A stretch of 12,835 nt of DNA from Nitrospinae bacterium RIFCSPLOWO2_12_FULL_45_22 (GTDB lineage: Bacteria; 2-12-FULL-45-22), in NCBI GenBank assembly GCA_001803565.1, contig MHDQ01000290.1, positions 1 through 12,835 on the forward strand, in the 5' to 3' direction. Under the pieces are notes generated by a model. The model made no database searches and had not been told where the DNA came from. It was given only the letters and a program-made list of their open reading frames with translations. Both the position numbers and the translations under genes were made by a program. How positions within the stretch are numbered: the first letter of the stretch is position 1; every line of letters starts with the position of its first letter. This document shows positions 594 through 12,835 of the stretch, piece after piece.

Positions 594-2180
594 ATGAAGA
601 TAACCATAAATAAAAAATTAATGATACTCTGTTTAAGTATAGCAGTACCTGAGGCCCTTATCCTGGGGGCTATTAGTTATCGCTCTTTACAAGAATTGGT
701 CCAGGTGAACCGTCAGTTGGAAGAGATAAGCCGGTCTCTAGAAATAACCAATCTCTTAGGCAGGACTATTAATCAAACTATTATACCCATCAGCAGTTAC
801 TTGATGAGTGGTGACCCGCAGGAGCAGCAACGTTTTCAGAAATTAAAGGAAGTAATTAGAAGAAACCTGGCTTTGTGTCACAATGGCCAATGCCATAGTA
901 GCACCAAACAACCCGCTGAGATGGTCAAGGTTATCCAACCAATAATTAAGGAGGTAGATGAAAAATCGAGGACCATCTTTGCCCTTTCGTATCCCTTGCA
1001 GGATAATTTAAGCGGGCCCTTAATAAAGGGCATAGAAGAGCTGGCCGGGAGGGCAGATATTTTATTAGGCAGGATGTCAGCCGCTCTTCTTATACGGGTA
1101 GAAGAATTAAGGCAACGGTCCCAGAAAATCAGCCAAAAAAACCTGAACGCTATCCTGATAGCTATGGCAGTATTAGTGGCCCTGGCTGCCCTGGTCTCTC
1201 ATTACATCTCGCGCCGGCTTACCTATCCCTTGTATCAGCTTCTATTTGGTATCCAGAAGGTAGTTAAAGGGGACCTGGACCAGCGTATAGAGGTAAAGGT
1301 AAAGGACGAGATTGGGGAATTGACATATTCTTTTAATCATATGGTTAAAGAGTTAAAGACTTACCGGGATAGCTATGAGGAATATAGGAGGTCATTAGAA
1401 CAAGAGGTAAAAGAAAAGAGCGATGAGTTGCGTCAAACCGAGGCCTTTCTTATTCAATCGGATAAATTGGCCTCCATCGGGCTGTTGGCCAGTGGGGTGG
1501 CCCATGAGCTTAATAATCCCTTAACCAGTATCTTGATGAATGTTAATTTACTAATGGAGACTACCTATAAAGATACCGAGTTGCATAGAGAATTACAAAA
1601 GATTGATGAAGACGGCTCTCGGTGCAAGAAGATAGTAGAAGACCTATTAAGCTTCGCGCGCCAGAATAAGGAGATGAACCGCAATAATAATATAGAAAAG
1701 GGTTGTTTTGAGGTAAATAAATCTCTGGAGAAGACCCTTTCTTTTATCCAACCTGAGATCTTACGACGAGATATAAAGATTGATTTAGACCTGGCCCCCG
1801 AGATTCCCTCCTGTATCGGTGATGAAAAGTATATCCAGCAAGTCTTTATAAATATTATCCTTAATGCCATCCAATCAATAGAGAAGAGGGGTAAAATAAA
1901 TACCTCAACTTCATTCTCTCGCCCGGATAATGGGGTGGAGATAATCATTAAAGATAACGGTCCGGGCATACCTAAAGAACACCGAGATAAGCTCTTTGAT
2001 CCCTTCTTTACCACCAAGCCTGAAGGGACTGGCCTCGGTTTATCCATCTGTTATGGAATCATCAGCCGGTATGGAGGCGCGATAGAAATTGAGAGCCTTA
2101 CCCGGGAGGAGATAAGCCCAGAAATGGAGAATGTCGCTCCCGGCACGACAGTTAAGCTGACCCTGCCGGCAGTAAAGTAG
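594..2180 (+). CDS. Membrane sensor histidine kinase with HAMP domain and candidate haem c site in the sensor region
   Basis: Sensor kinase of the NtrB/ZraS-like type (528 aa), which would autophosphorylate and pass phosphate to the response regulator encoded next. Visible architecture: N-terminal membrane helix (about residues 8-28), periplasmic helical sensor region (about 29-184), second membrane helix (about 185-206), HAMP linker (about 207-258), coiled coil, then the dimerisation domain with the phospho-acceptor His304 in GVAHELNNPL. The ATPase domain shows the N box (Asn424), G1 DNGPGIP (454-460), F box LFDPFFTT (467-474) and G2 GTGLGLS (478-484), so catalysis should be intact. Unusually, the sensor region carries CHNGQCH (95-101), a CX4CH motif that could bind haem c covalently. 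The start has no obvious Shine-Dalgarno site; ATG 621 is an alternative, but it would shorten the N-terminus just before the first helix. The family call is firm; the signal is inferred. Confidence 0.93.
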   Translation: MKITINKKLMILCLSIAVPEALILGAISYRSLQELVQVNRQLEEISRSLEITNLLGRTINQTIIPISSYLMSGDPQEQQRFQKLKEVIRRNLALCHNGQCHSSTKQPAEMVKVIQPIIKEVDEKSRTIFALSYPLQDNLSGPLIKGIEELAGRADILLGRMSAALLIRVEELRQRSQKISQKNLNAILIAMAVLVALAALVSHYISRRLTYPLYQLLFGIQKVVKGDLDQRIEVKVKDEIGELTYSFNHMVKELKTYRDSYEEYRRSLEQEVKEKSDELRQTEAFLIQSDKLASIGLLASGVAHELNNPLTSILMNVNLLMETTYKDTELHRELQKIDEDGSRCKKIVEDLLSFARQNKEMNRNNNIEKGCFEVNKSLEKTLSFIQPEILRRDIKIDLDLAPEIPSCIGDEKYIQQVFINIILNAIQSIEKRGKINTSTSFSRPDNGVEIIIKDNGPGIPKEHRDKLFDPFFTTKPEGTGLGLSICYGIISRYGGAIEIESLTREEISPEMENVAPGTTVKLTLPAVK

Positions 2181-2267: not shown

Positions 2268-3644
2268 ATGGATAGATCAAATAACCATAAGGGCAATATT
2301 CTGGTGGTAGATGATGAGATAAGAATAGGTGAGGCAATAAAAAAGGCCCTGGAGAGGAGTGGGTATCAGGTAGAGACTGCTGTTAATGGGACCCTGGCCT
2401 TAGAAAAGATGAAAGAAGCCCCCTTTGAGGTAGTCATTTGCGACCTAAAATTACCCGATATGGATGGTGTCCAATTGTTGCGCGAGATCAAAGAAAACCA
2501 ACTTGATACTACTGTGATTATGGTAACTGGATATGCCACGGTCGAGTCGGCTATCTCATCTATAAAATTAGGTGCCCAGGAATACATCTGTAAGCCCTTT
2601 AAGCCAGAACAGATTAGGGCGGCAGTGAGTGAGGCATTGGAAAAGAGGGATATCCTGAGTGATGAGTTACAAGAATTATATGGCCATCAGATAATAGTAG
2701 GCAAGAGCCCCCAGATGAGAAAGGTTTTTCAAATGGCCCAAAAAGTAGCGGATAATAACTCCAATGTGCTGATTACCGGGGAGAGTGGTACTGGCAAGGA
2801 GGTGGTAGCCCGAACCACCCATGCTTTTAGCCCCAGGGCCAGTAAACCTTTTGTAACAGTTAATTGTGCTGCTATCCCGGAGACATTACTGGAAAGCGAG
2901 CTTTTCGGCCACCGGAAAGGGGCCTTTACCGGAGCTACTTACAGCCGTAAAGGGAGCTTCGAGTTGGCCCATGGTGGGACTATTTTTTTAGATGAAATTG
3001 GGGAAATGAAGGTAGACATGCAGGCTAAAATCCTTAGGGTCCTGGATGAACGTAAGGTAAAAAGGGTGGGGGCAGAAGAGACTATTGGCATTGATGTGCG
3101 CGTTATTGCGGCTAGCAATAAAAATTTGGAAGAAGAGATGCGATCGGGCAATTTCAGAGAAGACCTCTTCTATCGCTTAAATGTGATCCAGATAGCCATC
3201 CCTCCTTTGCGGGAACATAAAGAAGATATCTCTATCCTTGCTCATTATTTCCTTAAAGTTTATCAGGAAGAGATGAAGAAAAAAATAAATGGATTTTCTG
3301 AGGAAGTGATGAACTCCCTGCTGGCTTATGACTGGCCAGGAAATATTAGGGAATTAAAGAATGCTATTGAGAGGGCAGCTATCCTGGTGGAAAAAAATTC
3401 TCCCCTTAGAAAAAGCCACTTTCCTCACCAGATCCAACTCCTAAGTCCCAGCCGGTGCGCAAAAAGGGAGGGGAAAGAAGGGGGTCTAAAGACTATAGCC
3501 CCCCTGAAAGATATGGAGATCAAATATATTGAAGAGGTCATGGAGATGTGCAGAGGTAATAAAACAAAAGCGGCAAGGCTGCTGGGTATTACACCGGTAA
3601 CTATCTGGCGAAAGTTAAGTAAAGGATTGCACTCAGATCGATAG
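2268..3644 (+). CDS. Sigma-54-dependent response regulator, NtrC family
   Basis: Transcriptional activator that opens sigma-54 promoters using ATP once phosphorylated (458 aa, the usual length for an NtrC/ZraR/AtoC-type protein). Domains in order: receiver (about 9-125) with the acidic pair Asp15-Asp16, phospho-acceptor Asp59 and Lys109; AAA+ domain (about 142-375) with Walker A GESGTGKE (171-178), the sigma-54 contact loop GAFTGA (218-223) and Walker B GTIFLDEIGEM; C-terminal Fis-type helix-turn-helix around NKTKAARLLGITPVTIWRK. All key residues are present. ATG 2268 has the Shine-Dalgarno AGAGGAG 5 nt upstream. It is presumably co-transcribed with and phosphorylated by the preceding kinase. 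The nearest visible target is the -24/-12 promoter at 4006-4021, about 360 bp past its stop codon, which points to control of the respiratory operon on the right (inference). Confidence 0.95.
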   Translation: MDRSNNHKGNILVVDDEIRIGEAIKKALERSGYQVETAVNGTLALEKMKEAPFEVVICDLKLPDMDGVQLLREIKENQLDTTVIMVTGYATVESAISSIKLGAQEYICKPFKPEQIRAAVSEALEKRDILSDELQELYGHQIIVGKSPQMRKVFQMAQKVADNNSNVLITGESGTGKEVVARTTHAFSPRASKPFVTVNCAAIPETLLESELFGHRKGAFTGATYSRKGSFELAHGGTIFLDEIGEMKVDMQAKILRVLDERKVKRVGAEETIGIDVRVIAASNKNLEEEMRSGNFREDLFYRLNVIQIAIPPLREHKEDISILAHYFLKVYQEEMKKKINGFSEEVMNSLLAYDWPGNIRELKNAIERAAILVEKNSPLRKSHFPHQIQLLSPSRCAKREGKEGGLKTIAPLKDMEIKYIEEVMEMCRGNKTKAARLLGITPVTIWRKLSKGLHSDR

Positions 3645-3741: not shown

Positions 3742-3871
3742 AATCCGAAAAATGCGTATATGCTCTCAAATAGTTGTAGGGCAAGGCTTCAGCCTTGCAT
3801 GAAATATTTGCCGAAGCAAGCTTAAAGGCTTGCCCTACCTGAGTTTGAAAAGAGAATTGCATTTTTCGGGT
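3742..3871. repeat. 130-bp palindromic MITE-like element, copy 1
   Basis: This is a long imperfect palindrome. The outer arms are AATCCGAAAAATGC (from 3742) and GCATTTTTCGGGT (to 3871). The inner arms contain GTAGGGCAAGGC and its near reverse complement GGCTTGCCCTAC. Two small hairpins, GCAAGGC-TTCA-GCCTTGC and GCAAGC-N6-GCTTGC, sit near the centre. It is about 96% identical (5 differences in 130) to copy 2 at 4059-4188, and no transposase is encoded. It looks like a non-autonomous mobile or REP-type element. Confidence 0.85.
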
Positions 3872-3900
3872 TAATATCCTTACAAAACTTAACCGCAATA

Positions 3901-3957: not shown

Positions 3958-4010
3958 TGCCAAGGGGTCAAAGTGGGTTCTTCATTCGCCATAAGAATAA
4001 GTCCTTGGCA
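3958..4010. promoter_or_regulatory. 8-bp inverted repeat overlapping the -24 element
   Basis: TGCCAAGG at 3958-3965 is the exact reverse complement of CCTTGGCA at 4003-4010, and the right arm covers most of the -24 TGGCAT. It could be an operator or a chance palindrome. A protein bridging both arms would compete with sigma-54 polymerase. Confidence 0.25.
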
Positions 4011-4021
4011 TAAAAATTGCT
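4006..4021 (+). promoter_or_regulatory. Sigma-54 (-24/-12) promoter for the cupin/cytochrome operon
   Basis: TGGCAT (4006-4011), five A residues, then TTGCT (4017-4021) matches the sigma-54 consensus TGGCAY-N5-TTGCW, with the invariant GG and GC separated by exactly 10 nt. Transcription would start near 4032 and run right into the cupin gene at 4209 and probably the cytochrome operon. The leader would contain the whole second palindromic element (4059-4188). A sigma-54 activator gene lies immediately upstream, which strengthens the call. Confidence 0.8.
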
Positions 4022-4058: not shown

Positions 4059-4188
4059 AATCCGAAAAATGCGTATATGCTCTCAAATAGTTGTAGGGCA
4101 AAGATTCAGCCTTGCATGAAATATTTGCCGAAGCAAGCCTGAAGGCTTGCCCTACCTGAGTTTGAAAAAAGAATTGCATTTTTCGGGT
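4059..4188. repeat. 130-bp palindromic MITE-like element, copy 2
   Basis: Same element as 3742-3871, in the same orientation and 317 bp further right. The right internal hairpin is a better pair here (GCAAGCC-TGAA-GGCTTGC), while the left one is weakened by two changes. It lies between the sigma-54 start point (about 4032) and the cupin Shine-Dalgarno site (4195-4199), so the mRNA leader should fold into a long hairpin. Confidence 0.85.
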
Positions 4189-4208
4189 GAAGATAAGGAC
4201 GAATAAAG

Positions 4209-4571
4209 GTGTCCAATATTAGAGTAATAGAAAATGGGGCCTCTTTAGTAGCCATCCAAAAAACCGGTTTAACTATAAAATGGATTTTTAAAAATGAATT
4301 CCTGGAGATATTAACTTTAGAGATGGGCCCAAGGACCTTATTAGAAGAGCCCTATATTTGCCAATATCAGGGTATCCATCACATTCTTGATGGAGAATTA
4401 ATATTTGAAACAGCAAGGGAATCTTATCAGGTTAAGAAAGGGGATATTATTTGGTGGGGCTCTGGTCCGTCTTTTAGAATAAAGAACCCCAATAATTTTA
4501 AAGGAATTATTTATACCTTACTTCTTAAGCCTGAATCTTGCACAAATGCCAGTGGTAGCCAGCTACATTGA
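4209..4571 (+). CDS. Small single-domain cupin protein
   Basis: Cytoplasmic protein of 120 aa with one predicted beta-barrel cupin domain. The central stretch runs GIHHILDGELIF (55-66), then YQVKKGDIIWWGSGPSF (73-89), which follows the cupin_2 pattern 'xVLxGExxF...L..GD.i..p.g.pH'. The usual last metal-ligand histidine is replaced (GPSF instead of G-P-H-like), and only the HH pair at 57-58 remains. It may therefore bind a ligand without metal or act as a small sensor. The start is GTG 4209, with AAGGA at 4195-4199 placed 9 nt upstream. It is the first gene after the sigma-54 promoter. Its DNA is visibly more AT-rich than the cytochrome genes that follow. Its role in the respiratory operon is unknown. 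Confidence 0.75.
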   Translation: MSNIRVIENGASLVAIQKTGLTIKWIFKNEFLEILTLEMGPRTLLEEPYICQYQGIHHILDGELIFETARESYQVKKGDIIWWGSGPSFRIKNPNNFKGIIYTLLLKPESCTNASGSQLH

Positions 4572-4678: not shown

Positions 4679-4700
4679 ATTTAAAAAGGGATAATTGGAT

Positions 4701-5201
4701 ATGCCGAAGAAGATCATCTTTAGTCTATATCTAGTTTTGGTCATTGGGGCAGTAGTTGTCTACTGGTCGAAGATCGGAGAGCCCAACATAAAACAGCCTA
4801 TACAATTTAACCATTTAAAGCACAAAGAAGTAGCTGATTGTGAAACCTGCCATAAATATATTAAGGAGCAAGCTTTTGCTAGCTTGCCGGTTAAAGAGGA
4901 TTGTGCGGCCTGTCATGAGAGTCCTATTACCGATAGCCCGGAGGAGAAAAAACTCCTGGATTTTATTGAAAAGGGAAAGAACATTTCGTGGGCTCGCCTC
5001 TATGAGTTACCTCCTCATGTCTATTTTTCCCACAAGAGGCACGTGACCATTGGTGATTTAGAATGCAAGTCGTGTCATGGTTATATGGCAGACCAGCAAA
5101 GCCCACCCAAAAAACCCTTAGTAGCCCTTATGATGGATGATTGCATCGCGTGCCATAGGAGCGCCGGTATTAAAACAGATTGCATAGCTTGTCACCGATA
5201 A
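4701..5201 (+). CDS. Membrane-anchored pentahaem cytochrome c (ActA/QrcA-like position)
   Basis: Periplasmic electron-transfer subunit of 166 aa. An N-terminal uncleaved-looking membrane helix (about 5-22) is followed by five haem-binding motifs: CETCH (47-51), CAACH (68-72), CKSCH (122-126), CIACH (148-152) and CIACH (161-165). Two matching segments, FNHLKHKEVADCETCH and FSHKRHVTIGDLECKSCH, supply histidines for bis-His ligation and suggest an internal duplication of a cytochrome c7-type unit. ATG 4701 is preferred over the in-frame TTG 4695 because AAAGGG (4685-4690) lies 10 nt before the ATG but only 4 nt before the TTG. A one-helix pentahaem cytochrome directly before MopB, ferredoxin and NrfD genes is the arrangement of ActA in alternative complex III; QrcA of Qrc is the other relative. 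The assignment to a complex rests on context. Confidence 0.9.
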   Translation: MPKKIIFSLYLVLVIGAVVVYWSKIGEPNIKQPIQFNHLKHKEVADCETCHKYIKEQAFASLPVKEDCAACHESPITDSPEEKKLLDFIEKGKNISWARLYELPPHVYFSHKRHVTIGDLECKSCHGYMADQQSPPKKPLVALMMDDCIACHRSAGIKTDCIACHR

Positions 5202-5375: not shown

Positions 5376-7808
5376 ATGATGGGTATAAACAGGAGGGATT
5401 TTTTAACCGCACTAGGTGTAGCCGGAGGTGGTTCTGCCCTGGCCTTTGGCCCCCAGGTGGGCCTCAAGGTCTTTCAAACCCTGTGGGGTGAAGATTGGGT
5501 AGAGGTACCAACGGGATTAGAGACTCGAATAAATTCTATCTGTCAGCAGTGTCCGGGTGGATGCGGGATAACTGTGAGGTTAGTGGGTGACCGTGCGGTA
5601 AAGATAGATGGTAATCCCTTCTATCCCATTAACCGGGGAGGCTTATGCCCCAAAGGACAATCTGGCCTCCAATCCCTTTATGACCCTGATAGGATACGAG
5701 GGCCGCTTAAACGGGTGGGAGAAAGGGGCGCCGGAAAATGGGAGTCTATCTCCTGGGATGATGCTATCAAAACAGTAATAACAAAGCTGCAGGAGATAAG
5801 AGAAAAAAAAGAAACCCATACCATAGCGATTATGGCAGGGGAAACCAGGGGCTTGATGCAGGCATTGTTGGAGAGATTTTTGCTGGCCTTTGGCTCACCT
5901 AATTATATCCGGGTCTCAGATGACCTGGCCGCCGGGCCCCTGGATGCCTTTTATCTCATGCAGGGATTAAAAGAGGGGCTGGTTTATGACCTGGAACAGG
6001 CCAACTATATATTATCTTTTGGCTGCGATCTGCTCCAGTCTTTCTGGTCCCCGGTGCAGGTCTTGAGGGCCTTTGGCTATATCAGGCGGGAAAGGGGCAG
6101 CCGTGCCCGGGTGATCCAGATAGAACCCCGCCAGTCTATAACCGCTACCAAAGCTGATGAGTGGATTCCAATCAATCCCGGTACTGAAGGGGCGCTAGCT
6201 TTAGGCATTGCCCACCTGATGATTAGAGAGGGGTTGCATGACGAAAATTTTATCTGGAATAATGCCTTTGGGTTTGAGGACTGGATAGATGATTCTCGGA
6301 TAAGCCACCAGGGCTTCAAGGGCCTGGTTCTTAAAGAATATTCGCCGGGTATTGTCTCTAGCATAACCGGGGTCCCCGTAGATGTGATAATACGATTGGC
6401 CCGGGAATTCGCTACTACTAAGCCAGCGGTGGCTATTGGACTGAGGGGTGATGTCCCTTCGCAGATGGCAGTCCATGCCTTAAATGCCCTGGTAGGAAGT
6501 ATTGATAGCCCAGGTGGAGTATTGGTAGCCCGGGATATCCCCGTTCCCGAATTACCCCCGATAGAGCCAGACGAGATTTCGCAAAAAGGGGCCCAGATGC
6601 CTCATATCGCCCAGCCGGCTAAAGAAAAGTATCTTTTAGCTGACTATTTACCCCATACCTTCCTGGAAAGGGCTTCAACGGGTGAGCCTTACAAATTAGA
6701 GGCCCTCTTCTTATATCAAACCAATCCCATATTTTCCTCTTTTAACCCGGAAGGGGTTGCTGGGGCATTGGACAAAATCCCTTTTATTGTTAGCTTCTCC
6801 TCTTTTATGGATGAGAGTAGCCAGCAGGCCGATCTGATTTTACCAGACCATACTTACCTGGAGAGGTGGCAGGACGACCCGGTCTATAACCTGAAAGGAT
6901 ACCCTATTATTGGGCTAAGAAGACCCGTGGTAAGCCCACTTTATGATACTCGTCATACCGGCGATGTTATTATCCAGTTGGCCAGGGGATTAGGTGGCTC
7001 TCTAGCCCAGGCCTTCCCCGGGAAAGATTTTCCGGAAACCCTTCAATACTATTTTCAGAAGCTCTTTGAACAAGGCCGGGGAGACCTGGTAGGACAGGAA
7101 TTTGAAGAGGCATGGTCTAAGCTCCTGGCCCGGGGCGGGTGGCGATCTCCTTCATACCAGACTGCCGAGGAATTTTGGCAAAGGCTGCAAGAAAAAGGGG
7201 GTTGGTGGGAACCTATCTATTATTATGGCGAGGGAGAAAGGGTCTTTAAAACACCTTCTCAAAGATTTGAGTTTTATTCCCAAATATTGAAGGAGAGGGT
7301 AGGGGTTCTGGCCGAAGAGAGGCTTAAGGCTATAGGGGTGCAGGTCCGGGGGGATAAGCTCTTTTTGCCCCACTGGGAGGCAGTCAAGCCGCCTGAAAGC
7401 AACGAAGAGCAGTATCCCTTTATCCTTAATATTTACCAGCCCCTGGTCTTTGCCGGGCTGATAAATGCAAGCCAACCCTTCCTGCAAGGAATCACCAGCC
7501 CAGCGCCTCTTGAAAGATGGGATTGTTGGATAGAGATAAACCCCGAGTTGGCCAAAAAATTGGGTATATCTTATGGAGACCAGGTATGGGTCGAGTCGCC
7601 CAGAGGTAAGTTGAGCTTCCGGGCCAAGTTGGTTGAGGGGGCGATGCCCGAAGTAGTTAATATCCCCCTGGGGGTTGGCCATAAGGCCTTGGGCCGCTGG
7701 GCAAAAAACATAGGAAAGAACCCCCTTTTAATAGTAGAAGGGCATTTAGAGCCTCTAACGGGAAGACCCCTTATCAATACTACCAGAGTGAAGATATATC
7801 GGGCATAG
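5376..7808 (+). CDS. Tat-exported molybdopterin oxidoreductase-family large subunit (ActB1/QrcB/PsrA-like)
   Basis: Large periplasmic subunit of a CISM-type complex (810 aa, normal for the DMSO-reductase superfamily). The N-terminus has a Tat signal with NRRDFL at residues 5-10. A [4Fe-4S] site follows: Cys56, Cys59, Cys63 and Cys91 (CQQCPGGC...GLCPKG). The remaining body has the superfamily layout, including LFLYQTNPIFSSFNP, ADLILPDHTYLERW and a C-terminal molydopterin-binding-type barrel (about 695-810, GDQVWVESPRGK). After FGSPN (172-176), where PsrA/PhsA relatives carry the Mo-ligand cysteine, the sequence reads RVSDDLAAGP. No Cys, Sec or Ser occupies the expected place, and Asp182/Asp183 is the only visible alternative. 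It may therefore be a cofactor-free structural subunit, as in ActB/QrcB, or an Asp-liganded enzyme. AAGGGAAG (5363-5370) supports the start; ATG 5379 is equally possible. Substrate unknown. Confidence 0.9.
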   Translation: MMGINRRDFLTALGVAGGGSALAFGPQVGLKVFQTLWGEDWVEVPTGLETRINSICQQCPGGCGITVRLVGDRAVKIDGNPFYPINRGGLCPKGQSGLQSLYDPDRIRGPLKRVGERGAGKWESISWDDAIKTVITKLQEIREKKETHTIAIMAGETRGLMQALLERFLLAFGSPNYIRVSDDLAAGPLDAFYLMQGLKEGLVYDLEQANYILSFGCDLLQSFWSPVQVLRAFGYIRRERGSRARVIQIEPRQSITATKADEWIPINPGTEGALALGIAHLMIREGLHDENFIWNNAFGFEDWIDDSRISHQGFKGLVLKEYSPGIVSSITGVPVDVIIRLAREFATTKPAVAIGLRGDVPSQMAVHALNALVGSIDSPGGVLVARDIPVPELPPIEPDEISQKGAQMPHIAQPAKEKYLLADYLPHTFLERASTGEPYKLEALFLYQTNPIFSSFNPEGVAGALDKIPFIVSFSSFMDESSQQADLILPDHTYLERWQDDPVYNLKGYPIIGLRRPVVSPLYDTRHTGDVIIQLARGLGGSLAQAFPGKDFPETLQYYFQKLFEQGRGDLVGQEFEEAWSKLLARGGWRSPSYQTAEEFWQRLQEKGGWWEPIYYYGEGERVFKTPSQRFEFYSQILKERVGVLAEERLKAIGVQVRGDKLFLPHWEAVKPPESNEEQYPFILNIYQPLVFAGLINASQPFLQGITSPAPLERWDCWIEINPELAKKLGISYGDQVWVESPRGKLSFRAKLVEGAMPEVVNIPLGVGHKALGRWAKNIGKNPLLIVEGHLEPLTGRPLINTTRVKIYRA

Positions 7809-7913: not shown

Positions 7914-7936
7914 GGCAAAAGACGAAGTGGGTTTAT

Positions 7937-7943
7937 GGAGGAG
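7937..7943 (+). promoter_or_regulatory. Ribosome binding site deciding the ferredoxin start
   Basis: GGAGGAG lies 9 nt before ATG 7953. The upstream in-frame ATG 7935 has only a weak AAGTGGG before it, and its own codons contain this site. This favours ATG 7953 as the start. Confidence 0.55.
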
Positions 7944-7952
7944 AAAGAAGGT

Positions 7953-8636
7953 ATGGTCCGATGGGGAATGGTTATAGACTTAGACAAGTGTACTGCCTGC
8001 CAGGCCTGTGTAGTAGCCTGTCAGGTGGAAAATAACGTACCTCCGGCTGATCCCACAATAGATGCTCAATACCGAGCAATCCATTGGTTGCGTTTACTAG
8101 AATATCGGGAAGGAGAATATCCTCATGTCCGTACCCGGCTGATACCCCGGCCCTGTATGCATTGCGATAAACCGCCCTGTGTCAAAGTCTGTCCAGTAGG
8201 GGCCACTAATATAGGCAGTGAAGGGATTGTAGATCAGATTTATGGCCGCTGTATTGGGTGCCGGTACTGTACCACTGCCTGTCCCTATACGGTCAAATAT
8301 ATGAACTGGTACCGACCCCGATGGCCTGAGGAGATGAAAAAGGCCTTTAATCCGGATGTTACCATCCGGCCCAAGGGGGTAGTAGAGAAATGTACCTTCT
8401 GCTCTCATCGGTTGATAAAGGCCCGGGAGAGGGTAAGGGCAGAGGCCAGGGAGCTAGGCCCGGGTGATTATATCCCAGCATGCGTAGAGACCTGTCCGAG
8501 TAACGCTATGTATTTTGGCGATCTGGAGAACCCTAACGGCACGGTTTTTCAGTTGGCCCGCAGTCACCGGGCCTTTAAGCTATTGGAAGATTTAGGTACT
8601 GAGCCTAAGGTTATCTATCTTTCTGAGGGAGAATAG
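7953..8636 (+). CDS. Four-cluster ferredoxin subunit (PsrB/NrfC/ActB2/QrcC-like)
   Basis: Electron-transfer subunit that would sit between the molybdopterin-family subunit and the NrfD-type membrane subunit (227 aa from ATG 7953; 233 aa if ATG 7935 is used). It has 16 cysteines in the four-cluster pattern of the DmsB/PsrB family: CTACQACVVAC (13-23), CMHCDKPPCVKVC (68-80), CIGCRYCTTAC (100-110), and CTFC (147-150) with CVETC (177-181). All positions are filled, so four [4Fe-4S] clusters are predicted. R. marinus-type ActB is reported to have one [3Fe-4S]. There is no signal peptide, so export would be by piggy-back on the Tat signal of the large subunit. The stop codon is 1 nt before the next start, implying translational coupling with the NrfD gene. 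Confidence 0.93.
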   Translation: MVRWGMVIDLDKCTACQACVVACQVENNVPPADPTIDAQYRAIHWLRLLEYREGEYPHVRTRLIPRPCMHCDKPPCVKVCPVGATNIGSEGIVDQIYGRCIGCRYCTTACPYTVKYMNWYRPRWPEEMKKAFNPDVTIRPKGVVEKCTFCSHRLIKARERVRAEARELGPGDYIPACVETCPSNAMYFGDLENPNGTVFQLARSHRAFKLLEDLGTEPKVIYLSEGE

Positions 8637-8637
8637 G

Positions 8638-10017
8638 ATGGTAATAGATCCGAAGGTTATAGAAGCCGAAAGAGAGCTGGTAGCAAAAATAGATCAAGAT
8701 GAGATCCTGTTCAAGCCGATTCTTAGTACAGGTAAGGGTTTTTATCTGGTAGCAGCGGCCTTGTTAACTATCGTGGTGCTGGCAGCATATGCCTATCTTG
8801 CCCAATTCCGCTACGGGCTAGGGGTAACCGGGCTAAATACCCCAACTTATTGGGGTGTCTATATAACTAATTTTGTCTTCTTTATTGGCATTAGCCATGC
8901 CGGTACCTTGATCTCGGCTATCTTACGGATAGCCCGGGCCGAATGGCGCCGCTCTATTACCCGCTCCGCAGAGGTAATAACGGTGCTGGTATTATTCTTT
9001 GGAGCGGGGAATATTATTATTGACCTGGGAAGACCTGACCGGCTCCTTAATGTCATCTATTATGGCCGCTTCCAATCGCCACTGCTCTGGGATGTGGTCA
9101 GTATAACTACTTATCTTACTGCCAGCTCTATCTATCTCTATCTACCATTGATACCGGATATAGCGTTGTTGCGGGATAGGGTCAAGGGGATCCGGCACTG
9201 GTTTTATAAAGTCCTGGCCCTGGGCTGGCGAGGTACTGAGCGGCAGATCCACTGGTTGGAGATAGCGATTGCCATCATGGCGATCCTGGTTATCCCGATC
9301 GCGGTTTCGGTTCATACGGTAGTGTCTTATGTTTTTGCCATGACTATCCAGCCCATGTGGCACAGTGCTATCTTTGGCCCTTATTTTGTGGTGGGAGCTA
9401 TCTTTTCTGGTATCGCAGCCATTATAATAGCTATGGCTATTATCCGGCGAGTGTATCACTTAGAGGACTATCTGAGGCCAGTCCATTTTGATTATTTAGG
9501 TGTCTTACTTCTGGTTATGTGCTGCCTCTGGTTCTATTTTACCTCCTGTGAATATCTAACAGTGTTTTATGGCGCCGAACCTGTCCACCTGGCAGTCTTT
9601 TATTCTAAGATCACGGGACACTACGCACCCTATTTCTATGCCATGTTAGCTACCTGTTTTGTCATACCCTTTGCTATCCTGGCTAATGGTAAGACCCGCA
9701 ATGTGACCGGCTGTGTCATTGCCTCTATCGCAGTCACTATAGGTATGTGGCTAGAGCGGTTTACCATTGTAGTGCCGACCCTGGTCAATCCCCGCCTCCC
9801 TTATGAGCGTGGTATTTATATGCCTAGTTGGGTAGAGTGGTTCATTTTTGCGGGCTGTTTTGCCTTTTTTACTCTCCTCTATATGCTATTTACTAAACTA
9901 TTCCCTATTGTATCCATTTGGGAGATAAGAGAAGGTCGCGAAAAATCCCTGGCTGAAGTAGAAGAGAGGCTAAGGACGTATTTGCCTTTTAAAGAAGAAG
10001 TAAGCAGTAAGAAGTAA
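8638..10017 (+). CDS. NrfD/PsrC-family quinone-interacting membrane subunit (ActC/QrcD-like)
   Basis: Integral membrane protein of 459 aa that would exchange electrons with menaquinone or another quinone and pass them to or from the iron-sulphur subunit. It has many hydrophobic segments, roughly ten helices, which fits the longer ActC/ActF/QrcD branch rather than the eight-helix short NrfD proteins. Family-like motifs are visible: GISHAGTLISA (84-94), IIDLGRPDR (127-135), HTVVSYVFA (226-234), PMWHSAIFGPYF (239-250) and WLERFTIVVPTL (371-382). The Shine-Dalgarno GAGGGAG lies inside the end of the ferredoxin gene and the genes are 1 nt apart. The last residues (EEVSSKK) and the stop codon lie inside a short DNA repeat (9998-10022), so the C-terminal tail is probably repeat-derived. 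Direction of electron flow cannot be read from sequence. Confidence 0.93.
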   Translation: MVIDPKVIEAERELVAKIDQDEILFKPILSTGKGFYLVAAALLTIVVLAAYAYLAQFRYGLGVTGLNTPTYWGVYITNFVFFIGISHAGTLISAILRIARAEWRRSITRSAEVITVLVLFFGAGNIIIDLGRPDRLLNVIYYGRFQSPLLWDVVSITTYLTASSIYLYLPLIPDIALLRDRVKGIRHWFYKVLALGWRGTERQIHWLEIAIAIMAILVIPIAVSVHTVVSYVFAMTIQPMWHSAIFGPYFVVGAIFSGIAAIIIAMAIIRRVYHLEDYLRPVHFDYLGVLLLVMCCLWFYFTSCEYLTVFYGAEPVHLAVFYSKITGHYAPYFYAMLATCFVIPFAILANGKTRNVTGCVIASIAVTIGMWLERFTIVVPTLVNPRLPYERGIYMPSWVEWFIFAGCFAFFTLLYMLFTKLFPIVSIWEIREGREKSLAEVEERLRTYLPFKEEVSSKK

Positions 10018-10022
10018 GCAGT
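9998..10022. repeat. 13-bp-period tandem repeat across the NrfD-type stop codon
   Basis: GAAGTAAGCAGT occurs at 9998-10009 and again at 10011-10022, followed by a degenerate third unit (GAACAGT). The first unit is read as the last codons of the membrane-subunit gene, and the second contains its TAA stop. Confidence 0.6.
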
Positions 10023-10031
10023 GAACAGTAC

Positions 10032-10153
10032 ACCGTAGAGCACGCAAAAGAGGATATTGGGTCATTGGGTGACTACGTTATTGCGCCATTACTTAATAAC
10101 CTAATAACCCAATAACGTAATGACCTATCGAGGGTCTTTGCGTGCTTTACGGT
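10032..10153. repeat. 122-bp palindromic intergenic element
   Basis: Left arm ACCGTAGAGCACGCAAAAGA (10032-10051) and right arm TCTTTGCGTGCTTTACGGT (10135-10153) are reverse complements except for one mismatch and one extra A. The interior also folds back: GGTCATT...TACGTTATT on the left against AATAACGTAATGACC on the right. The stretch 10094-10113 matches 2184-2203 exactly in inverse orientation. It separates the membrane-subunit gene from the tetrahaem cytochrome gene and could form a processing or attenuating hairpin in the mRNA. Confidence 0.7.
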
Positions 10154-10195
10154 ATAATTTTGGATTAACTTAGATGGGTCCAAGGGAGGAAGGGA

Positions 10196-11392
10196 ATGGG
10201 TATAGTTAAGATAGTTGTTGGTCTCATGACCATAATAGCAATTCTGTCATCACTTGCAGGAGCGGAGGATTATCGTCTCCCTAGCAATCCAGTTGAGGGC
10301 TCCCGGATCTTTATTAACAAGGGTTGTATCAAATGTCACGCCATAAAAGATGAAGGAGGGACTATTGGGCCTGATTTGGGCAAGGTGAGTATAGGTGGGA
10401 CCTTGCTGGATATGGCTGGTGTTATGTGGAACCATGCCCCCTATATGGAAGGGGTAATGAAGCAAGAGAAGATTATCTGGCCAGTATTATTGGGTGAAGA
10501 GATGGCCAGTCTTATAGCCTATCTCTATTTCGTGAACTATTTTGATGAGCCGGGTGATCCTGCAGTTGGCCAGGCCCTTTTTGTGAGTAAGGGTTGCATA
10601 AAATGCCACAGCATAAACGGTAGTGGTGGTAAAATCGGACCGGGTTTAGACAAATTTAAGCAGAATGCCTCCCCCATTGTTATCACTCAGGCCATGTGGA
10701 ATCACGGTCCCCAAATGTCAGCTAAGATGAGCCAGTTAGCTATTCAGCCACCGCAATTCCAGGGGAAAGAAATCATAGACCTATTGGCTTATATCAAGAC
10801 CCAGGCTAAGGGTAGGATTGCTGGAGGGACGGCTTATATGCTTCCTGGGAACCCCCAGGAAGGGAGAAATATTTTTGTAGAAAAGGGTTGTATCAAATGC
10901 CATGCCGTAAGGGCTGAAGGCGGTACCACTGGCCCGGATTTAGGAAAAAGGGCCACAGAACTATACCGTAGTGTTAATCAAGTAGCAGGCATCATGTGGA
11001 ATCATGGTTCTACTATGTGGGCTAAGATGAAGGAAAAAGGAATAGAAGTCCCCAAGTTTTCTGGTAAAGAAATGGCCGACCTCATTGCTTATCTCTACTT
11101 TATCCGTTATTTTGATAAACCAGGAGACCCGATAAAGGGCCCCAGGTTATTTTCTGATCGGTGGTGCATAAAGTGCCATAGCATCAAAGGGGAGGGGGGA
11201 AAGGTAGGCCCAGATTTAGCAAAGGTAAAGGGTATCTCTTCACCGGTAGACTTAGCAGCCATGATGTGGAACCATGTCCCGATCATATATAAGGAAACCG
11301 TTAAGCAACAGATCCCCTGGCCCCAGTTTCAAAAAGGAGAAATGGCCGATATATTAGGCTATTTGGAGGCGACGCAGGAAAAACCCAAGTAG
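10196..11392 (+). CDS. Tetrahaem cytochrome c of four tandem monohaem domains
   Basis: Exported periplasmic electron carrier (398 aa) with a cleavable-looking signal (LSSLAGA/EDY, cut near residue 23). Four class-I-like domains follow, with haem sites CIKCH at 44-48, 134-138, 232-236 and 324-328. Each domain reads: LF..KGCIKCH, an EGG/GxGG turn, GPDL, MWNHxPxM, a short helix, then E(M/I)xDLxAYL. Domains 1 and 3 both end YLYFxxYFDxPGDP, and a longer linker (about 201-220) separates domains 2 and 3, so the protein looks like a duplicated two-domain unit. Domain 4 has MWNHVPII, lacking the Met that the other three keep after WNH, so its sixth haem ligand may differ. A strong Shine-Dalgarno (GGGAGGA, 10184-10190) precedes the ATG. 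Context suggests it is the acceptor or donor for the upstream quinone complex (ActE-like role), which is inference. Confidence 0.92.
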   Translation: MGIVKIVVGLMTIIAILSSLAGAEDYRLPSNPVEGSRIFINKGCIKCHAIKDEGGTIGPDLGKVSIGGTLLDMAGVMWNHAPYMEGVMKQEKIIWPVLLGEEMASLIAYLYFVNYFDEPGDPAVGQALFVSKGCIKCHSINGSGGKIGPGLDKFKQNASPIVITQAMWNHGPQMSAKMSQLAIQPPQFQGKEIIDLLAYIKTQAKGRIAGGTAYMLPGNPQEGRNIFVEKGCIKCHAVRAEGGTTGPDLGKRATELYRSVNQVAGIMWNHGSTMWAKMKEKGIEVPKFSGKEMADLIAYLYFIRYFDKPGDPIKGPRLFSDRWCIKCHSIKGEGGKVGPDLAKVKGISSPVDLAAMMWNHVPIIYKETVKQQIPWPQFQKGEMADILGYLEATQEKPK

Positions 11393-11436: not shown

Positions 11437-11694
11437 ATGGGTAAAGAAGAAAAGGTTATCCTTACGGTCCAAATGACTAGCCTAATCCTGTTCTATCTCT
11501 TTGGGGCCGGGGTAATAACCTTTGTCTTATCGGTAGTATATCGCTCCTGGATGAATAATGATGCCTGGGTGCATGCCATCGTCATAGCGGCGATTATAAT
11601 ACCCGTATTTTTGATCTTAACCTTTGTCGTTACTGTGATATTTGTGGTTACCATCAAAGAAGGCAGGGAGGTGGAGAAGGAGGTTAGGTTATGA
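11437..11694 (+). CDS. Small two-helix membrane protein of the cytochrome operon
   Basis: I do not recognise this 85-aa family. It has two hydrophobic segments (about 13-35 and 45-73) joined by a short loop (YRSWMNNDAWVH), and a charged C-terminus (KEGREVEKEVRL) probably on the cytoplasmic side. There are no cysteines or CXXCH sites. AAAGGAGGG (11421-11429) sits 7 nt before the ATG, and the stop overlaps the next cytochrome start (ATGA at 11691-11694). Such a tight position between two cytochrome genes suggests a small accessory or anchoring subunit of the complex. It lacks any sequence feature that would prove this. Confidence 0.75.
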   Translation: MGKEEKVILTVQMTSLILFYLFGAGVITFVLSVVYRSWMNNDAWVHAIVIAAIIIPVFLILTFVVTVIFVVTIKEGREVEKEVRL

Positions 11695-12835
11695 GAATAG
11701 TCAGGAAAGTATTGGTCTTTTGGTTTTGGGCTACCCTTGTGCTGAGTCCCGCACTGTTAATAGCCCAGGAAGAGTCTTATATTCTGCCCGGTGATGCTAA
11801 GCAGGGCTGGCAAACGTTTTATACTAAAGGGTGTATAAAATGCCACGCCGTCTGGGGAGAGGGAGAAAGGATTGGCCCAGACCTCTCTCAAGCACCGGCT
11901 GGCCAGCATATGACTGCGGCCGGGCTAATAGCAGAGATGTGGAACCACGGCCCGGAGATGTGGGGAAAGATCACCACTAAAGGGGCTGAGCATAAACAGA
12001 TTACCCAGGGAGAGATGGCTGATATTTTCGCCTTCTTATATTTCATCCGTTATACGGATGAGCCGGGCGACCCGCCTAAGGGCAAAGAACTATTGACCGC
12101 CAAGAAATGCGCTGAATGCCATGGGATCGCTGGTAAAGGGGGAAAGATCGGGCCGGACCTGACTAAATGGTCTATGTATACTAATCCCATAGTCTGGGCC
12201 CAGATGATGTGGAACCATGCTACTAAGATGAAGGCCGAGATGGGGAAAAAGGGTATACCTTGGCCAGAGTTTAAAGGGAATGAGATGGTGGACCTCATTG
12301 CCTATATCAGAAGTATTAAGCCCGCCGCGGAAAAAGTCTACCTATCCCCCGGTGACCCGGCCGAAGGGAAGACCCTCTTCTCCCAAAAGGGCTGTATTAA
12401 ATGCCACGCTATACGGGGCAAAGGGGGTAAGAAAGGGCCAGATTTAGGAGAAAAAAAGGAATTCCCACCTACTTTGTCACAACTAGCCGGCCGCATGTGG
12501 AACCATTTTCCGGGCATGTGGGAAGAGATGGAAAAGGAAAAGGTCTCTATACCAGAGCTATCGGCTAAAGATATGGTCAGTATCACCGCCTATCTCTTTT
12601 CTGTTAGATACTTCGACCCACCAGGAGACAAGGAGAGAGGGGAAAGGGTTTTTACCGAGCGAAAATGTAGCCACTGCCATACCGTAGGAGGTAGGGCTAA
12701 AGAGACTATAGGGCCGGATTTGAGCGGTTTGCGGGGCAAAGTATCACCCATATTGCTGGCTACGGCCTTATGGAACCATGGTCCTGATATGTTCAAGCGC
12801 ATGAAAGAAGAAAACATCCGTTGGGAGAGGGCTAC
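11691..12835 (+). CDS. Second tandem-domain multihaem cytochrome c (3' end beyond window)
   Basis: An open frame runs from ATG 11691 to the window edge (381 codons seen). It begins with a hydrophobic export segment (MRIVRKVLVFWFWATLVLSP) and shows four haem sites: CIKCH, CAECH, CIKCH and CSHCH, each followed by a WNH motif (EMWNHGPEM, MMWNHATKM, RMWNHFPGM, ALWNHGPDM). Domain 1 ends LYFIRYTDEPGDP and domain 3 YLFSVRYFDPPGD, with a longer linker after domain 2. This is the same two-plus-two layout as the 10196-11392 protein, so the genes are probably duplicates. Compared with that protein, only some 20-25 residues of domain 4 should be missing, unless further domains follow. Domain 4 has LWNH in place of MWNH. 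The start overlaps the upstream stop by 4 nt, implying coupled translation. Confidence 0.9.
   Translation, partial: MRIVRKVLVFWFWATLVLSPALLIAQEESYILPGDAKQGWQTFYTKGCIKCHAVWGEGERIGPDLSQAPAGQHMTAAGLIAEMWNHGPEMWGKITTKGAEHKQITQGEMADIFAFLYFIRYTDEPGDPPKGKELLTAKKCAECHGIAGKGGKIGPDLTKWSMYTNPIVWAQMMWNHATKMKAEMGKKGIPWPEFKGNEMVDLIAYIRSIKPAAEKVYLSPGDPAEGKTLFSQKGCIKCHAIRGKGGKKGPDLGEKKEFPPTLSQLAGRMWNHFPGMWEEMEKEKVSIPELSAKDMVSITAYLFSVRYFDPPGDKERGERVFTERKCSHCHTVGGRAKETIGPDLSGLRGKVSPILLATALWNHGPDMFKRMKEENIRWERA

Follow-up and report, generated by a model that had tools for sequence, protein, structure and literature searches.

Does the sensor kinase encoded at the start of this locus carry a covalently bound haem through which it could control the cytochrome operon that lies downstream? 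We addressed this in a stretch of 12,835 nucleotides (the window), in which the plus-strand gene at 594..2180 encodes a 528-residue sensor histidine kinase, as judged from its open reading frame, Pfam matches and hydropathy. Hydropathy placed membrane helices at residues ~9-28 (TM1) and ~183-206 (TM2) and predicted that the Lys-rich N-terminus lies inside, while Pfam matched HAMP (205-255, after TM2), HisKA (297-358) and HATPase_c (409-526). The protein has the HisKA and HATPase_c domains of a HAMP-HisKA sensor histidine kinase, and its kinase boxes are intact (AHELNNPL at 303, DNGPGIP at 454 and GTGLGLS at 478), so it is expected to be active. Because there are two membrane helices, an inside N-terminus and HAMP, HisKA and HATPase_c all following TM2, residues 29-184 (156 residues; 678..1145, plus strand) are predicted to form a periplasmic sensor domain. 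These residues had no Pfam match at E 0.1, and a search of the window's own genome revealed no second copy of the sensor, the other matches there being mostly to the HAMP region. The overall two-component architecture is ordinary; the scaffold is unusual.

The periplasmic domain contains two Cys and two His residues, and all four lie inside a single seven-residue stretch, CHNGQCH, encoded at 876..896 on the plus strand by the codons TGT CAC AAT GGC CAA TGC CAT (C95 H96 N97 G98 Q99 C100 H101). Codon reading, hydropathy and Pfam together bear out the earlier note, which had placed a CX4CH motif at codons 95-101, between the two predicted membrane helices and in the periplasm. The motif shares with those of c-type haem proteins the form CXnCH (n 2-4), with the His immediately after the second Cys, and a predicted position outside the cytoplasmic membrane. 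Cytochromes c3 use CX4CH. Shuffling of the periplasmic domain produced CX4CH by chance at 1.3e-4 (1 in 7,700) and the broader C-X2-4-CH at 6e-4. Published genome surveys count CX4CH among haem motifs (PMC10734462). Counting against a haem reading, CXXCH is commoner than CX4CH, and the haem domain models of Pfam gave no match to the sensor domain.

A search of 60 diverse genomes yielded a sole strong match, in a genome of another phylum (G032), with 42% identity over residues 4-137; the orthologous gene (L011/L041) reaches the contig end after residue 149. Its motif is CGTALCH compared to CHNGQCH in the window kinase (QSCGTALCHEASKRPGEM in the orthologue and LALCHNGQCHSSTKQPAEM in the window kinase). 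C95, C100, H101, K105, P107, E109 and M110 are identical in the orthologue, while all four spacer residues (H96, N97, G98 and Q99) and C13 of TM1 are changed. At the 42% background identity, the probability that C95, C100 and H101 would be kept and the four spacer residues changed is ~0.008 (0.42^3 x 0.58^4, calculated post hoc). A pattern of this kind would follow if the haem-binding positions were all that mattered. Taken alone it fits haem and metal binding alike, yet it weighs against a simple disulphide, since H101 is kept although a disulphide needs no H101. Conservation of C95, C100 and H101 among orthologues had been proposed as a check on the haem interpretation; all three are kept in the CGTALCH of the one orthologue found. 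No further orthologue was detected at E 1e-6 among 386 spread genomes searched with a two-sensor profile, where a match in G265 proved to be a motif-less relative, and three more motif-less relatives were found in the phylum of that genome. Phyla for further searching were chosen using 16S loci. No additional orthologue was found in the phyla of G032, G015, G058, G215 and G315 (1-7 genomes each), including the three-genome phylum of G215, the nearest by 16S (87%). A single-sequence scan of genome contigs returned an unrelated HAMP match and no further orthologue, and viral contigs and plasmids contained none. Upstream of the G032 orthologue (L041, 4597-6817) are a gene for a radical SAM/SPASM protein and another whose product has a haem domain of the ethylbenzene-dehydrogenase type and contains CMAACH; this neighbourhood is haem-related and unlike that of the window.

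CX4CH was also found in other sensor kinases. Two further kinases of the window's genome, L008 (G000:C251) and L009 (G000:C127), each have two periplasmic CXXCH motifs (CQICH and CHACH/CHECH) and are probable haem-c sensor kinases, as judged from these motifs. The model of the GSU0582/GSU0935 sensor family (PF21563) matched L008 above and L009 below the Pfam cut-off, and it also matched L020. An alignment pairs the second motif of L008 with RCQSCH, the haem motif in GSU0935 (PDB 3b42); it is weak (E 0.8) but is supported by the passing of the PF21563 cut-off by L008. Kinases from two other phyla, L018 (544-2193, G058) and L020 (757-2541, G015), have the same layout as L008 and L009, and their second motif is CYTAACH, a CX4CH. 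CYTAACH replaces the CXXCH of L008 and L009 in these dihaem kinases, which places CX4CH at a haem-c site of sensor kinases other than the window protein. All four resemble the window protein in being HAMP-HisKA kinases with periplasmic haem-c motifs, including CX4CH at the second site of L018 and L020, but they differ in having a PF21563/Cache-like sensor with two motifs and no helical bundle. Surveys restricted to CXXCH would miss haems such as that at the second site of L018 and L020.

We next considered the scaffold on which the motif is presented. AlphaFold2, run on a single sequence, modelled residues 29-184 as four helices (30-72, 75-93, 107-129 and 142-182; mean pLDDT 58) with the motif in the predicted H2-H3 turn, where pLDDT fell below 50; an AlphaFold model of residues 1-273 had a pLDDT of 43. 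Foldseek with the model of residues 29-184 gave no significant match (best E 0.2), and prominent among the non-significant matches were the periplasmic four-helix sensors PcaY_PP, LytS-N and Adeh_2942. VIA-align placed Vc1313, NarQ, Adeh_2942, QseE, MCP2201 and Tsr at Z 8-11, values that are weak for helical bundles and may mean merely a common arrangement, below the bundle-specific level. A PDB sequence search with the sensor returned PilJ alone (E 0.08). Adeh_2942 is a four-helix sensor that likewise lacks a Pfam match and has helices at 38-75, 77-101, 104-134 and 137-179 (PMC3831638), limits similar to those predicted here. The models suggest that the sensor fold is likely a four-helix bundle. 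Five remoter, helical relatives without the motif (L044 and L050-L053) align along the entire sensor domain and have in common with it P65 followed by a Y/F-L segment; a profile comparison against these relatives alone gave an hhalign probability of 97% (E 3e-11), the alignment being broken by a gap of four residues where the motif lies. Three of the five have a Cys close to position 95 but lack CH. We considered whether the motif is a clear insertion and found this weakly supported, since the turn exceeds that of four motif-less relatives by 2-4 residues but is shorter than that of the remaining one.

The gene that follows the kinase (2268..3644, plus strand) encodes an NtrC-type response regulator in which Pfam and motif searches identified the receiver, sigma-54 AAA+ domain (GAFTGA at 218) and Fis-type HTH of a sigma-54 activator, consistent with the earlier claim that the kinase adjoins such a protein. 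NCBIfam gave an AtoC-like match below cut-off. A sigma-54 (-24/-12) promoter-like site, TTGGCATAAAAATTGCT, lies at 4005..4021 on the plus strand, ~190 bases before the cupin gene and on its coding strand, and is the sole exact match in the window to TTGGCAYRN4TTGCW. With one mismatch or fewer allowed, this pattern had 3 matches in the window compared to 0.10 expected by chance; a looser pattern with two mismatches was not above chance in the window. This promoter match upstream of the operon supports a link between the kinase/NtrC-type pair and the cytochrome genes. A second sigma-54-like site, with one mismatch, occurs at 123-139 on the minus strand, points leftward out of the window and possibly serves a divergent gene. 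The intergenic region also contains a 136-base MITE- or REPIN-like element in two copies that are 95% identical (3742-3877 and 4059-4194); its ends, CCGAAAAATGC...GCATTTTTCGG, are inverted, and a further inverted repeat lies inside it. The site at 4005-4021 lies between the two copies, so that an operon leader would run through the second.

The first gene past the promoter (4209..4571) has a GTG start and encodes a small cupin-like protein (weak Pfam cupin match, E 0.01). It is followed, also on the plus strand, by genes for a QrcA/ActA-like cytochrome with five CXXCH motifs (4695..5201, listed from TTG with an ATG possible at 4701; NCBIfam QrcA E 4e-28, below cut-off), a QrcB/PhsA-like subunit of the molybdopterin oxidoreductase family with a Tat-like signal and an Fe4S4 domain (5376..7808; Pfam, NCBIfam), a QrcC-like iron-sulfur subunit (7935..8636; NCBIfam QrcC E 7e-89, below cut-off) and an NrfD/DsrP/QrcD-like membrane subunit (8638..10017; Pfam NrfD, NCBIfam). 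PDB matches of the QrcA/ActA-like protein include subunit A of alternative complex III. Two cytochromes c, each with four CXXCH domains, come next (10196..11392, from Pfam and motifs, and 11691..12833, from the open reading frame, Pfam and motifs), the second running off the window. The multihaem cytochrome, molybdopterin-family, iron-sulfur and NrfD-type subunits are encoded in the same order as in Qrc menaquinone reductase and alternative complex III (ACIII), from which the operon differs by its two extra four-domain cytochromes c. Because the NCBIfam scores for QrcA-D fall below the curated equivalog cut-offs (98/180, 329/440, 298/400 and 41/570 bits), we term it Qrc/ACIII-like rather than Qrc. 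Order and strand suggest that the cupin-to-cytochrome genes are co-transcribed, with some gaps of up to ~300 bases. The operon encodes 13 CXXCH motifs, in agreement with the description of the kinase as lying near a multihaem operon, and c-haem maturation is expected in this organism on account of these motifs. A long imperfect inverted repeat was seen by eye at 10020-10160, between the NrfD-like gene and the gene for the first four-motif cytochrome.

We propose, with a probability of roughly 0.62, that the kinase is a covalent-haem redox or ligand sensor that controls the Qrc/ACIII-like complex. Haem c on the sensor domain is probable from the sequence evidence: the haem-binding positions are the only part of the motif kept in the cross-phylum orthologue, haem sensor kinases elsewhere have CX4CH instead of CXXCH, and the sigma-54 promoter ties the kinase/NtrC pair to the cytochrome operon. 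In this model the outer domain would fold, as the weak models suggest, into a helical bundle like those of Tar and NarQ, and C95 and C100 would form thioether bonds to one haem with H101 as its proximal ligand, as implied by the motif. The periplasmic domain has no His other than H101 and the non-conserved H96, so the distal position would either be empty or have Met or Lys as ligand; the orthologue retains M110 as well as K105. A redox change of the haem, or binding of a small ligand, would shift the bundle and alter autophosphorylation through TM2 and HAMP. Sigma-54 polymerase at 4005-4021 would in turn be activated by the NtrC-type regulator, so that the cupin gene and the Qrc/ACIII-like cytochrome operon are expressed. 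An empty or weakly occupied distal site would be as compatible with binding of NO or CO as with redox sensing, and a kinase-type sCache_heme protein behaves as an NO sensor (PMC12889525); for these reasons redox sensing is not strongly preferred over gas sensing. The earlier proposal of a haem-c redox sensor thus held in part: covalent haem is the best-supported reading of the motif, orthologue, CYTAACH kinases and operon, while its redox role is less settled.

Three alternatives to a haem were weighed. C95 and C100 could be joined in the H2-H3 turn by a redox-active disulphide, whose opening and closing would alter the bundle and the kinase, with H101 incidental. These are the sole two periplasmic Cys residues, they lie five residues apart and both are kept in the orthologue; yet the His right after the second Cys is kept too, while H96 and the spacers change, and the neighbouring operon abounds in haem c rather than thiol chemistry, which makes a disulphide unlikely. 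Alternatively, C95, C100, H101 and a fourth ligand could bind a metal ion (zinc, copper or nickel, for example), making the kinase a metal sensor. A helical sensor could coordinate metal through two Cys and a His, and some metal-sensing kinases are periplasmic. We consider metal binding quite unlikely, however, given that the domain has no other Cys or conserved His to complete the site (H96 changes), the neighbouring genes are respiratory and the window encodes no metal transporter or chaperone. It is also conceivable that the motif arose by chance and holds no cofactor, and that the bundle senses a small molecule like Tar, NarQ or PcaY, which would fit the occurrence of the same scaffold in motif-less relatives. 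This is very unlikely in view of the frequency of ~1e-4 for such a motif in the periplasmic domain and its retention in another phylum despite turnover of the spacer.

A covalent haem would invite comparison with the periplasmic haem-c sensors known from the papers searched, which are Cache/PAS-like and in which CXXCH is conserved in 99% of sCache_heme domains (PMC12889525, PMC8396549). The sCache_heme group (Tll0287/DUF3365, PF11845; GSU0582 and GSU0935, PF21563) is believed to stem from a ligand-binding scaffold that received a short insert able to bind haem (PMC12889525, PMC8396549). Its members resemble the proposed haem sensor as periplasmic sensor domains of kinases or chemoreceptors that use one covalent haem c for redox or NO sensing, but have a Cache alpha/beta fold and CXXCH, whereas the window domain is predicted to be all-helical and has CX4CH. 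Residues 29-184 did not match PF11845 or PF21563 at E 0.1, and in place of the canonical CXXCH both the window kinase and its orthologue have a four-residue spacer. The domain is no sCache_heme member, although it may work like one. The weak model of the domain resembles NarQ, Tar/Tsr, PcaY_PP and Adeh_2942 (PMC3831638) in predicted helix order and lengths, but none of these is known to hold a covalent cofactor, and the H2-H3 turn of Adeh_2942 is short. We found no haem-c four-helix sensor kinase in the open-access papers searched. It is a tentative, if quite possible, reading that a four-helix-bundle sensor gained a CX4CH haem-c turn independently of sCache_heme and was wired via sigma-54 to a Qrc/ACIII-like complex. 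If the haem were confirmed, it would represent a second, independent graft of haem onto a sensor scaffold, here a helical bundle, and would lie beside helices leading into the membrane. The system would then offer a direct test of how periplasmic redox state or ligands switch a Qrc/ACIII-type complex. Scans for CXXCH only would miss CX4CH sensors such as the window kinase.
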